This document shows, one piece after another, positions 33,251-35,600 of a stretch of 64,000 nt of DNA. How positions within the stretch are numbered: the stretch's first letter is position 1; every line of letters begins with the position of its first letter. The DNA is from Mycolicibacterium parafortuitum (GTDB lineage Bacteria; Actinomycetota; Actinomycetes; Mycobacteriales; Mycobacteriaceae): contig NZ_AP022598.1 of NCBI RefSeq assembly GCF_010725485.1, forward strand, positions 2,356,001 to 2,420,000, read 5' to 3'. Under the pieces are notes generated by a model that saw only the letters and a list, made by a program, of their open reading frames with translations, searched no databases and had not been told where the DNA came from. A program made the position numbers and the translations under genes.

Positions 33251-33343
33251 GCGTCACGCTCTGGCCGGATTGCGTGACTCCGTCACGCTTCGGTCCAATT
33301 GCGTGACTTCGTCACGCTTCGGTCCAATTGCGTGACTTCGTCA
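33251..33343. repeat. Tandem 29-bp repeats, each forming a small hairpin
   Basis: Two near-identical 29-bp units (33272-33300, 33301-33329) differ at one base. A degenerate half-unit precedes them (33251-33271) and a 14-bp partial unit follows (33330-33343). Each unit contains GCGTGAC-TTC-GTCACGC, a 7-bp stem with a 3-nt loop (first copy CTCC-centred with one change). The last partial unit supplies the sseC stop codon. The cluster sits just downstream of the cysA-sseC operon and may act as terminator or mRNA 3-prime end. Confidence 0.75.
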
Positions 33344-33643
33344 GGCGACCTTGACGTCGACCTCGTGGATCCCGGCGCCCGACGGCGCGACGCTGGCATC
33401 GCCATTGCCCGCCGGCGACAGCGCGCGCAGCGTCCAGCTGCCCGGCGCCGCGAAGAACCGGAAGTCACCGGTGGCCGACGCGACGACCTCGGCGGTGAAC
33501 TCGTCCGAGCTGTCCAGCAGACGCACGAAGGCGCCGCCCACAGCCTGTCCCGAACCGTCGACGACACGGCCGGTGATGACCGTCTCCTTCTCCAGGTCGA
33601 CGCTGGCCGGCAACGTCAGTCCTTGCTTCGGTGCACTGCACAT
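33341..33643 (-). CDS. sseC: SseC, DUF1416 protein of the thiosulfate sulfurtransferase operon
   Basis: The 100-residue protein matches the SseC length and DUF1416 pattern (ITGRVVDGSGQAVGGAFVRLLDSSDEF, FFAAPGSWTLR), a beta-sandwich of the carboxypeptidase-regulatory type. It starts 1 bp after the cysA stop. Function in sulfur metabolism is inferred from the constant link with CysA. It corresponds to Rv0814c. Its stop lies inside a tandem repeat. Confidence 0.9.
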   Translation of the reverse strand: MCSAPKQGLTLPASVDLEKETVITGRVVDGSGQAVGGAFVRLLDSSDEFTAEVVASATGDFRFFAAPGSWTLRALSPAGNGDASVAPSGAGIHEVDVKVA

Positions 33644-33644
33644 A

Positions 33645-34478
33645 TCAACTTCCCAACTCGATCGGGGCTCCCACCAGGGAACCGTATTCGCACCAACTGC
33701 CGTCATAGTTCTTGACGTTCTTGTGGCCCAGCAGCTCCCGCAGCACGAACCAGGTGTGCGACGAGCGCTCACCGATCCGGCAGTACGCGATGACCTCCTT
33801 CTCGCCGTCCAGGCCGGCGTCGGCGTACAGCTTGGCCAGTTCCTCGTCGGACTTGAAGGTGCCGTCCTCGTTCGCCGCCTTGCTCCACGGAACGTTGATG
33901 GCCGTGGGGACGTGGCCGGGACGCTGGCTCTGCTCCTGCGGGAGGTGGGCCGGGGCCAGGATCTTGCCCGAGAACTCGTCGGGGGACCGCACGTCGACCA
34001 GGTTCTTGGTACCGATCGCGGCGATCACCTCATCGCGGAACGCGCGGATGCTCAGGTCGGGCTCCTTGGCCGAGTAGCTCGTCTGCGGGCGGCTCACCGG
34101 ATCCTTGGACAGCGGGCGGGCGTCGAGCTCCCACTTCTTGCGGCCGCCGTCGATCAGCTTGACGTTCTCGTGGCCGTACAGCTTGAAGTACCAGTACGCG
34201 TACGCGGCGAACCAGTTGTTGTTGCCGCCGTAAAGGATCACGGTGTCGTCGTTGGAGATGCCGCGCTCGGAGAGCAGCTTCGAGAACTGCGCGGCGTCGA
34301 CGAAGTCGCGCCTCACCGGATCCTGCAGATCCTTCTTCCAGTCGAGCCGGATGGCGCCCGGGATGTGACCGGTGTCGTAGGCGCTGGTGTCCTCGTCGAC
34401 CTCGACGAAGACCGTGTTCGGTGCGTCGAGATTGCTCTCGGCCCAGTCGGTGGTGACCAGGACGTCGGAGCGTGCCAT
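33645..34478 (-). CDS. cysA: Thiosulfate sulfurtransferase (rhodanese)
   Basis: The 277-residue enzyme has two rhodanese domains. The N-terminal one has GHIPGAIRLDW; the C-terminal active-site loop CRIGERSS contains Cys233, which carries the persulfide. It transfers sulfane sulfur from thiosulfate to acceptors, and in mycobacteria it also serves cofactor sulfuration. It lies between the DUF4395 gene and sseC in an operon preceded by a polycysteine leader ORF, implying control by cysteine supply. It corresponds to Rv0815c (CysA2). Starts at ATG 34478 after GGATCCCCC. Confidence 0.95.
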   Translation of the reverse strand: MARSDVLVTTDWAESNLDAPNTVFVEVDEDTSAYDTGHIPGAIRLDWKKDLQDPVRRDFVDAAQFSKLLSERGISNDDTVILYGGNNNWFAAYAYWYFKLYGHENVKLIDGGRKKWELDARPLSKDPVSRPQTSYSAKEPDLSIRAFRDEVIAAIGTKNLVDVRSPDEFSGKILAPAHLPQEQSQRPGHVPTAINVPWSKAANEDGTFKSDEELAKLYADAGLDGEKEVIAYCRIGERSSHTWFVLRELLGHKNVKNYDGSWCEYGSLVGAPIELGS

Positions 34479-34498
34479 GTGGGGGATCCTTTCGATTG

Positions 34499-34960
34499 CT
34501 ACTGCGTGGGGGTGAAGCGTGCGATGAGCGGATAGAGCTGACAGCCCAGACAGATTCCGAAGGCTGCGTTGAGCAGTGCCGCGATGAGCGCGAGGCCGGT
34601 CGCGGCCAGACCGAGCGGCACCAGGCCGCTCGCAAAACCGAGGGCGCCGACGACGGCGAAGACGAGCCCGACCAGCTGTGCGAACTTCAGCGGTGGCACC
34701 GGCTCACGCTCGGTGACCGGCCCCAAACGCGGCGCGACGACCGCGGCGAACACCAGGCCGTACGGGTGGCGGCGGGGTCCGAGCGCCGCGCCGACGGCGA
34801 AGACGAGCGCCTGGACGCCGAGGATCACCGCGGCCGCGGTCGGGTTCTGCGCCGACACCAGTAGCGCGACGACCAGGACGGCGGTGGTCACCCACGCGAC
34901 GAACCGGGGGCCGCGCACATCCACGAGCGCCGGGGCGCCGGTGGCTGTGAGGTTCGACAT
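34499..34960 (-). CDS. DUF4395 membrane protein
   Basis: The 153-residue protein has about four membrane helices in pairs. A DPR-like N-terminus (VDVRGPRFVAWVTT) is followed by the terminal FGICLGCQLYPLI, where a Cys-Leu-Gly-Cys pair could be redox active. DUF4395 genes commonly sit beside rhodaneses or thioredoxins. ATG at 34960 has a good AGGAG (34968-34972) seven bases away. This ribosome-binding site can pair with the polycysteine codons of the upstream leader ORF. A role in sulfur import or redox is inference. Confidence 0.82.
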   Translation of the reverse strand: MSNLTATGAPALVDVRGPRFVAWVTTAVLVVALLVSAQNPTAAAVILGVQALVFAVGAALGPRRHPYGLVFAAVVAPRLGPVTEREPVPPLKFAQLVGLVFAVVGALGFASGLVPLGLAATGLALIAALLNAAFGICLGCQLYPLIARFTPTQ

Positions 34961-35046
34961 AGAAGTGCTCCTGTTGCTCGATACGGCTGATGCGGCGGCC
35001 GGTCACGGCCAGAACGCAGAGTGCGCGCGAAGAAGAGCGCGGCTAC

Positions 35047-35139
35047 TCAGCAGCTACGACAACAACAGCAACAACCCGCAACGCGGCACAGGTCCACTGC
35101 GCGGCGCTTGGTGAGCGTGAGCTCAAGGCGGGCTGACAC
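35047..35139 (-). CDS. Leaderless polycysteine leader ORF (cysteine-responsive attenuator)
   Basis: A 30-residue frame begins GTG TCA and encodes a basic middle (LTKRRAVDLCRVAG), then five consecutive cysteines and RSC. No Shine-Dalgarno is present, but a -10 box TAAGCT (35147-35152) ends 7 bp before the GTG, so the mRNA is expected to start at the start codon. This is the design of the polycysteine leaderless ORFs known in mycobacteria: ribosome stalling at the Cys codons when charged tRNA-Cys is scarce changes downstream mRNA folding. The regulated genes are DUF4395-cysA-sseC. The seven bases of the first Cys codons (35067-35073) are complementary to AGCAACA beside the DUF4395 ribosome-binding site (34972-34978). 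Confidence 0.85.
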   Translation of the reverse strand: MSARLELTLTKRRAVDLCRVAGCCCCCRSC

Positions 35140-35146
35140 GGCAGAC

Positions 35147-35152
35147 AGCTTA
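35147..35152 (-). promoter_or_regulatory. -10 box of the leaderless cys operon transcript
   Basis: TAAGCT on the minus strand ends seven bases before the GTG of the polycysteine ORF. The promoter lies against the 3-prime end of thiX, whose stop is at 35169. Confidence 0.65.
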
Positions 35153-35168
35153 CCCAACAACAGGGTGA

Positions 35169-35600
35169 TCAGGCCAACAGCGGTTCCACCGCCGCACGCA
35201 GGTCAGCGGCGGTCGGCACTCCCGACGCCCGATAGCGCTGCCTGCCCTCGGCGTCGAAGATGAACGTCGTCGGCAACGAGAGCACCGAAAGCTTGCGCGC
35301 CGCCTCGGGATTGGCGTCCATGTCGATCTCCACGTGCGTCACCCCGGGCAGCTCGGCACACACCTGATCGACGATCCGGCGCAGCCCCACACACGGGCCG
35401 CACCAGGTGGCGCTGAAGTGAAGCACCGTCGGGCCGGTTCGGGACAGGCCCAGATCCTCGACGTCGCCGTCATCGAGTGCCGGCCACTCGGCAGCCCCCT
35501 TGAGCAACCCGGACCGCAGCGTCATCATCCTGCCGATCACGAACGCGACGCCGAACACCCCGATCAGCACCGCGATGACCGCGATCCACGACGAACTCAT
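35169..35600 (-). CDS. thiX: Membrane-anchored thioredoxin-like protein
   Basis: The 143-residue protein has one N-terminal helix (~5-25), then a thioredoxin fold with the active site ATWCGPCVGLR and the cis-Pro loop SLPTTF. WCGPC implies disulfide reduction. It corresponds to Rv0816c. ATG overlaps the lmeA stop (ATGA), so it is co-translated with it. Whether the domain faces the cytosol depends on helix orientation, which is not certain. Confidence 0.9.
   Translation of the reverse strand: MSSSWIAVIAVLIGVFGVAFVIGRMMTLRSGLLKGAAEWPALDDGDVEDLGLSRTGPTVLHFSATWCGPCVGLRRIVDQVCAELPGVTHVEIDMDANPEAARKLSVLSLPTTFIFDAEGRQRYRASGVPTAADLRAAVEPLLA

Follow-up and report, generated by a model that had tools for sequence, protein, structure and literature searches.

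A putative cysteine-responsive leader peptide of the Ms5788A family ahead of the DUF4395-cysA2-sseC operon of Mycolicibacterium parafortuitum

Described cysteine leaders and related attenuators

In M. smegmatis, the Cys codons of leaderless polycysteine ORFs reportedly bring about cysteine-responsive attenuation, and the abstract of that work, Canestrari 2020, is said to describe stalled ribosomes that block structures sequestering the ribosome-binding site. The model it reportedly gives for Ms5788A, in which stalling of the ribosome opens the ribosome-binding site, is the one proposed here for a leader ORF starting at position 35139 of the window, that is, the whole 64-kb stretch of Mycolicibacterium parafortuitum DNA that we analysed. 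Cys leader peptides were predicted ahead of mycobacterial cys operons in Seliverstov 2005, passages of which propose Rho-dependent termination (PMC1262725). Passages of Shell 2015 describe a small ORF with C-terminal Cys codons upstream of cysA2/Msmeg_5788, report that this leader ORF is occupied by ribosomes and conserved in mycobacteria, and suggest attenuation (PMC4633059). The title of Canestrari 2020 and excerpts from three papers that cite it state that the Cys codons in such ORFs control downstream genes via cysteine-dependent attenuation (PMC9031893, PMC13236596, PMC9094748); one of them terms the mechanism translation attenuation and, citing another source, mentions pairing of the upstream ORF that masks the Shine-Dalgarno sequence (PMC13236596). 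The name Ms5788A itself was not found in the literature searched.

Two other kinds of amino acid sensor invite comparison. The LEU element described for leuA in actinobacteria is likewise proposed to bring a series of regulatory codons into pairing with the Shine-Dalgarno sequence of the next gene, but this element concerns leucine and a pseudoknot, and changes of its Leu codons are noted to be without influence on regulation (passages of PMC1262725). Classical trp-type attenuators share a codon-run leader peptide sensing an amino acid; a terminator is expected in them, whereas none lies in the spacer behind the 35139 leader.

The peptide encoded at 35139, VSARLELTLTKRRAVDLCRVAGCCCCCRSC, scores 51.8 bits against the NCBIfam model NF042933 (Ms5788A family Cys-rich leader peptide), for which the cut-off is 45. 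The ORF is a member of the described mycobacterial family of Cys leaders, which is already known, and it represents no new type of regulation. With Ms5788A of M. smegmatis it shares the family, the position before the cysA2 operon and the C-terminal Cys codons, but it belongs to another species, differs in sequence detail and is known from sequence alone. The first-pass annotation had called polycysteine leaderless ORFs established in mycobacteria. Two other identities were rejected: NF042935, a wrong guess at the family, and a described RNA family or riboswitch, as none of 4227 Rfam models gave a match at E up to 1 within 34400-35600.

The leader ORF and the operon behind it

The leader ORF, which carries Cys at codons 18, 23-27 and 30 of its 30 codons and ends in TGA (35049-35047), heads a predicted operon of DUF4395, Rhodanese and DUF1416 genes (Table 1), whose gene order is observed. 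The two-domain rhodanese is presumably CysA2, a label that we take from its operon position. A thioredoxin-like gene on the same strand ends at 35169, leaving 29 nt before the leader GTG, and the gap from the leader stop to the DUF4395 start is 86 nt. Immediately past the SseC-like gene lies a 29-bp tandem repeat of 2.6 copies (33269-33343).

Table 1. Window coordinates of the leader, its predicted helix and the operon genes.
Feature	Position	Strand	Remark
-10-like box TAAGCT	35147..35152	-	7 nt ahead of GTG
Leader ORF, 30 codons + stop, Ms5788A family	35047..35139	-	NF042933 match
Cys codons 23-27, TGT TGC TGT TGT TGT	35059..35073	-	sequence
Consensus helix, 5' arm	35062..35072	-	RNAalifold, 49 leaders
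Consensus helix, 3' arm	34967..34977	-	RNAalifold, 49 leaders; spans CAACAGGAG, one G unpaired
Shine-Dalgarno AGGAG of DUF4395	34968..34972	-	CAAC (34976-34973) directly ahead
DUF4395, first operon gene	34499..34960	-	PF14340
Two-domain rhodanese, CysA2-like thiosulfate sulfurtransferase	33645..34478	-	PF00581, two matched stretches
DUF1416 gene, SseC-like	33341..33643	-	PF07210

The first-pass annotation had read here a 30-codon ORF with five consecutive Cys codons and two more nearby, starting seven bases after a -10 box and preceding a sulfur operon, and each of these points proved correct. A leaderless start at the GTG would fit the box 7 nt upstream, and this spacing recurs in 71 of 73 motif-called leader ORFs, the remaining 2 having 6 nt. 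When the 64-kb window was scanned for ORFs of 10-60 codons with at least 4 Cys and an ATG or GTG lying 6-8 nt after TANNNT, the 35139 ORF was the only one found.

We consider it highly probable that this Ms5788A-family ORF controls DUF4395-cysA2-sseC by cysteine-responsive translational attenuation. Transcription would start at or beside GTG 35139, to judge by the spacing of the -10 box, and because it would begin there, ribosomes would load without a leader. With Cys-tRNA in good supply, ribosomes would clear the Cys run and leave, and the freed Cys codons would pair with CAACAGGAG in a predicted, conserved helix hiding the DUF4395 Shine-Dalgarno sequence. Under cysteine shortage, a ribosome held up at codons 23-27 would cover the 5' arm and prevent the helix, and DUF4395-cysA2-sseC would then be translated. 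The 5' arm corresponds to codons 23-26, and a geometry that uses the size of the ribosome footprint would place a ribosome waiting there over this arm. The sequestration put forward in the first-pass annotation as its own inference is thus the published model, going by passages of the citing papers and the reported abstract; it agrees with the translational attenuation that those passages describe. The reading as a leaderless polycysteine attenuator draws support from the family match, conservation and folding.

Predicted pairing of the Cys tract and signs of selection on its codons

Folding the leader RNA, as the first-pass annotation had proposed, gave a minimum-free-energy helix of 35070-35057 against 34980-34966 that hides AGGAG, and the RNAalifold consensus helix (Table 1) includes AGGAG as well. 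The leaders compared were 71, the window included, namely 73 minus L134, for which no start was called, and L199, which lacks a GGAG site, with L133 retained despite its doubtful start. Pairing probabilities, duplex controls, codon counts, the CAAC count and the within-leader control all refer to this full set. Alignment A1, on the other hand, holds 49 of the 71; the other 22 were omitted after the pairing results, mostly for another register or low pairing, and because its rows were so chosen, the results based on it (RNAalifold, paired changes, column identity) lean towards structure.

The exact register is ambiguous. The proposed pairing of 35067-35073 exists, in that UGUUGCU (35073-35067) can base-pair throughout with AGCAACA (34978-34972), but it is one of several registers rather than the consensus, being 78.4% paired in the A1 pair counts against 92.6% for the 72-79 register. 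Several registers are possible because the Cys codons form a triplet repeat, and slides by 3 columns pair almost equally well in A1; this repeat, together with low variation, leaves the register ambiguous. Paired changes in A1, with its chosen rows and low variation, were no greater than in shuffles in three registers, and covariation was dropped as proof of the helix on that account.

Whether the pairing exceeds chance depends on the setting, since the tract stands out as a partner inside folded leaders but its isolated duplex is not exceptional. Across the 71 folded leaders, the Shine-Dalgarno sequence is paired with some partner in 67; for pairing of AGGAG with the tract, the probability exceeds 0.5 in 44 leaders and is 0.5 or lower in the other 27. 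By the within-leader control, the tract takes a mean share of 0.52 of the Shine-Dalgarno pairing, other segments of its length average 0.019, and no such segment beats the tract in 54 of the 71. Within the folded leaders, then, the Cys tract is the main predicted partner of the Shine-Dalgarno sequence. Duplexes as strong as the isolated one (-18.7 kcal/mol) are formed by 15 of the window's 95 other natural AGGAG 24-mers, by 946 of 5000 random sequences of that length and by 181 of 2000 shuffled ones; the duplex energy was rejected as proof of pairing, not lying above natural or shuffled controls. The fold of the whole window leader is mildly stable (z -1.77, with 8 of 200 shuffles equally good), and pairs taken from one species have a weak advantage over swapped ones (92 of 5000 permutations, kinship ignored). 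In nine leaders CAACA lies 12-14 nt before the Shine-Dalgarno sequence, and the probability of AGGAG pairing with the tract is at most 0.33; several of this group come from named slow growers, including L147, L150, L152, L172, L192 and L196.

The codons themselves carry a further signal. Among the leaders, TGC is used at codon 18 in 70 of 71, at codon 24 in 58 of the 68 with Cys there and at codon 30 in 35 of 36, and TGT at codon 25 in 70 of 71 and at codon 26 in 54 of 60. The Cys tracts of the 71 leaders contain 277 TGT and 176 TGC codons; the DUF4395 genes of 80 loci contain 23 TGT and 141 TGC, and nine window genes 8 and 23. The choice of Cys codon is position-specific, a sign of selection on the RNA, although a preference for UGU could also stem from slower wobble decoding. 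The other side of the proposed helix behaves similarly: CAAC stands immediately ahead of AGGAG in 43 of the 71 leaders, among the 96 AGGAG sites that the two strands of the window contain, the combination occurs at 1, namely the DUF4395 site, and in A1, with its chosen rows, mean column identity is 0.95 for CAAC against 0.65 for the spacer.

These features bear on the foremost rival, transcriptional attenuation, by which ribosome stalling at the Cys codons under cysteine shortage would shield the spacer (35046-34980) from the action of Rho or a terminator and so raise transcription of the operon. Rho-dependent termination was indeed proposed for mycobacterial cys leader peptides in Seliverstov 2005, and the spacer varies in length (64-144 nt in nearly all called leaders), as a Rho region could; yet the same paper, in the passages available, rates its Rho prediction rather weak (PMC1262725). 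Two terminator-like sites were found, one in the leader ORF (35094-35073) and one in the upstream gene (35278-35265), but the spacer has none, and the conserved CAAC and the synonymous codon choice are left unexplained, so that we regard this reading as improbable. An intrinsic terminator hairpin with a U run was looked for in the spacer, and none was found.

Distribution, register shifts and a possibly older motif

Presence of the ORF beyond chance is clear among relatives. For comparison, 85 of 87 listed places were retrieved, and at the 80 named DUF4395 loci the leader ORF is present in 74, 72 of them recognized by a motif script and two (L167, L189) by eye. Four loci, from M. gastri, M. 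persicum, M. simulans and M. asiaticum (L151, L153, L164 and L177), have no leader just upstream of DUF4395, which comes directly after the thioredoxin gene there. Another locus, L156, combines a degenerate motif with additional Cys codons (VPRFELSLTSCCAVEPRCTAGSCCRC) and keeps its TAAACT box intact, and the upstream sequence of L194 is too short to judge. In a second same-genus set, which includes the window's own locus and some second copies, the leader, preceded by a TANNNT box, is present within 300 nt at 45 of 58 loci; L045 carries the ORF but lacks the box, 11 loci have no leader, and L055 offers just 102 nt of upstream sequence. In genome G029 (L095), one of those whose DUF4395 locus has no leader, the leader stands ahead of cysA2-sseC and DUF4395 is found elsewhere, with a stub ORF of about 12 codons after the leader, where DUF4395 would start; the leader has stayed with cysA2-sseC, not with DUF4395. 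A contig titled as a Bifidobacterium breve MAG (L198) carries a mycobacterial-type leader and DUF4395, and is probably a mislabelled bin.

Beyond the genus the peptide persists with a reduced Cys run. Of the 296 genomes examined from the class, 240 have an NF042933 match at E up to 0.1, 40 of them above the cut-off, compared with 1 of 14 control genomes and 0 above it. Other families of the order contributed 20 DUF4395 loci, 14 of which have the motif (same-genus L072 excluded from these counts); none of the 14 has three consecutive Cys, and KRRAVDLCRV is kept as a peptide in actinobacteria without a Cys run. Over the 12-residue motif, 79 of 168 codons differ between the window and these 14 loci, but only 26 residues do. 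Such conservation and the breadth of NF042933 matches would suit nascent-peptide arrest, in which KRRAVDLCRV itself pauses the ribosome and the Cys run adds to it, rather than Cys decoding only; however, the conserved residues could instead serve leaderless initiation or RNA structure, and the Cys codons of L156 persist where its motif has degenerated, which makes arrest by the peptide very improbable in our judgement. A trans-acting small protein, binding thiol or metal for example and standing before the operon incidentally, is scarcely credible, for its Cys-rich C-terminus lends it general plausibility only, the Cys run shrinks outside the genus, and a synonymous codon choice that matches the Shine-Dalgarno region is not needed for protein function.

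Where a Shine-Dalgarno sequence was called at the other-family loci with the motif, the probability of its pairing with the C-terminal codons exceeds 0.5 in 4 of 11. In the Mycobacteroides-like leaders (L141, L144, L146, L163 and L179), the Shine-Dalgarno sequence lies opposite the final Cys codons and the stop codon, a tract end of TGCTGCTAA or TGCTGCTGA facing TTAGGAGCA, TCAGGAGCA or CTAGGAGCA. The combinations are TAA with TTAGGAGC three times, TGA with TCAGGAGC once and TAA with CTAGGAGC once; by eye, stop codon and Shine-Dalgarno flank match in 4 of the 5, L179 being incomplete, and the match may reflect a single evolutionary event. As a tentative and rather doubtful suggestion, the polycysteine run could have been elaborated on the mycobacterial side from an older actinobacterial leader made of KRRAVDLCRV and a few Cys codons, that leader itself perhaps pausing ribosomes on sulfur or cysteine state, with masking re-set in lineage-specific registers that include the Mycobacteroides-like stop-codon one.

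The same genome holds a second Cys leader outside the window, an Ms4527A-like ORF with a GTG start (VIAAHSFPRRVSLVARLHVDFKRVCTCCCLR; G000:C1:3502132-3502191, minus strand; L227, L234), which scores 40.2 bits against NF042936, below the cut-off of 45. The gene after it is nitrite/sulfite reductase-like, a partial ORF whose best NCBIfam match, ferredoxin--nitrite reductase, is below the cut-off. The Ms4527A family (NF042936, upstream of nirA) belongs to the same mechanism class as the Ms5788A family, but the second leader differs from the 35139 leader in peptide and operon, and its GTG follows a box that departs from TANNNT. A genome-wide polycysteine regulon was rejected, as TGYTGYTGYTGY gave 73 match rows in the genome against 102 for its reversed control. 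A scan of 31 stretches (20 + 11 loci, covering 32 of the 73 rows) for leaderless ORFs with at least 3 Cys returned one weak candidate, a short ORF at L210 minus 1456 (MYRTSQAVLAAARRACCCCAPRRA), 6 nt after TAACTT, which may be chance; the nirA-type leader in L227 was missed because the scan required TANNNT.

Very likely, then, the sulfur operon of this environmental mycobacterium is also under the control of the cysteine switch already described; the codon choice, the CAAC island, the lineage losses and the register shifts provide a comparative frame for testing the published model.
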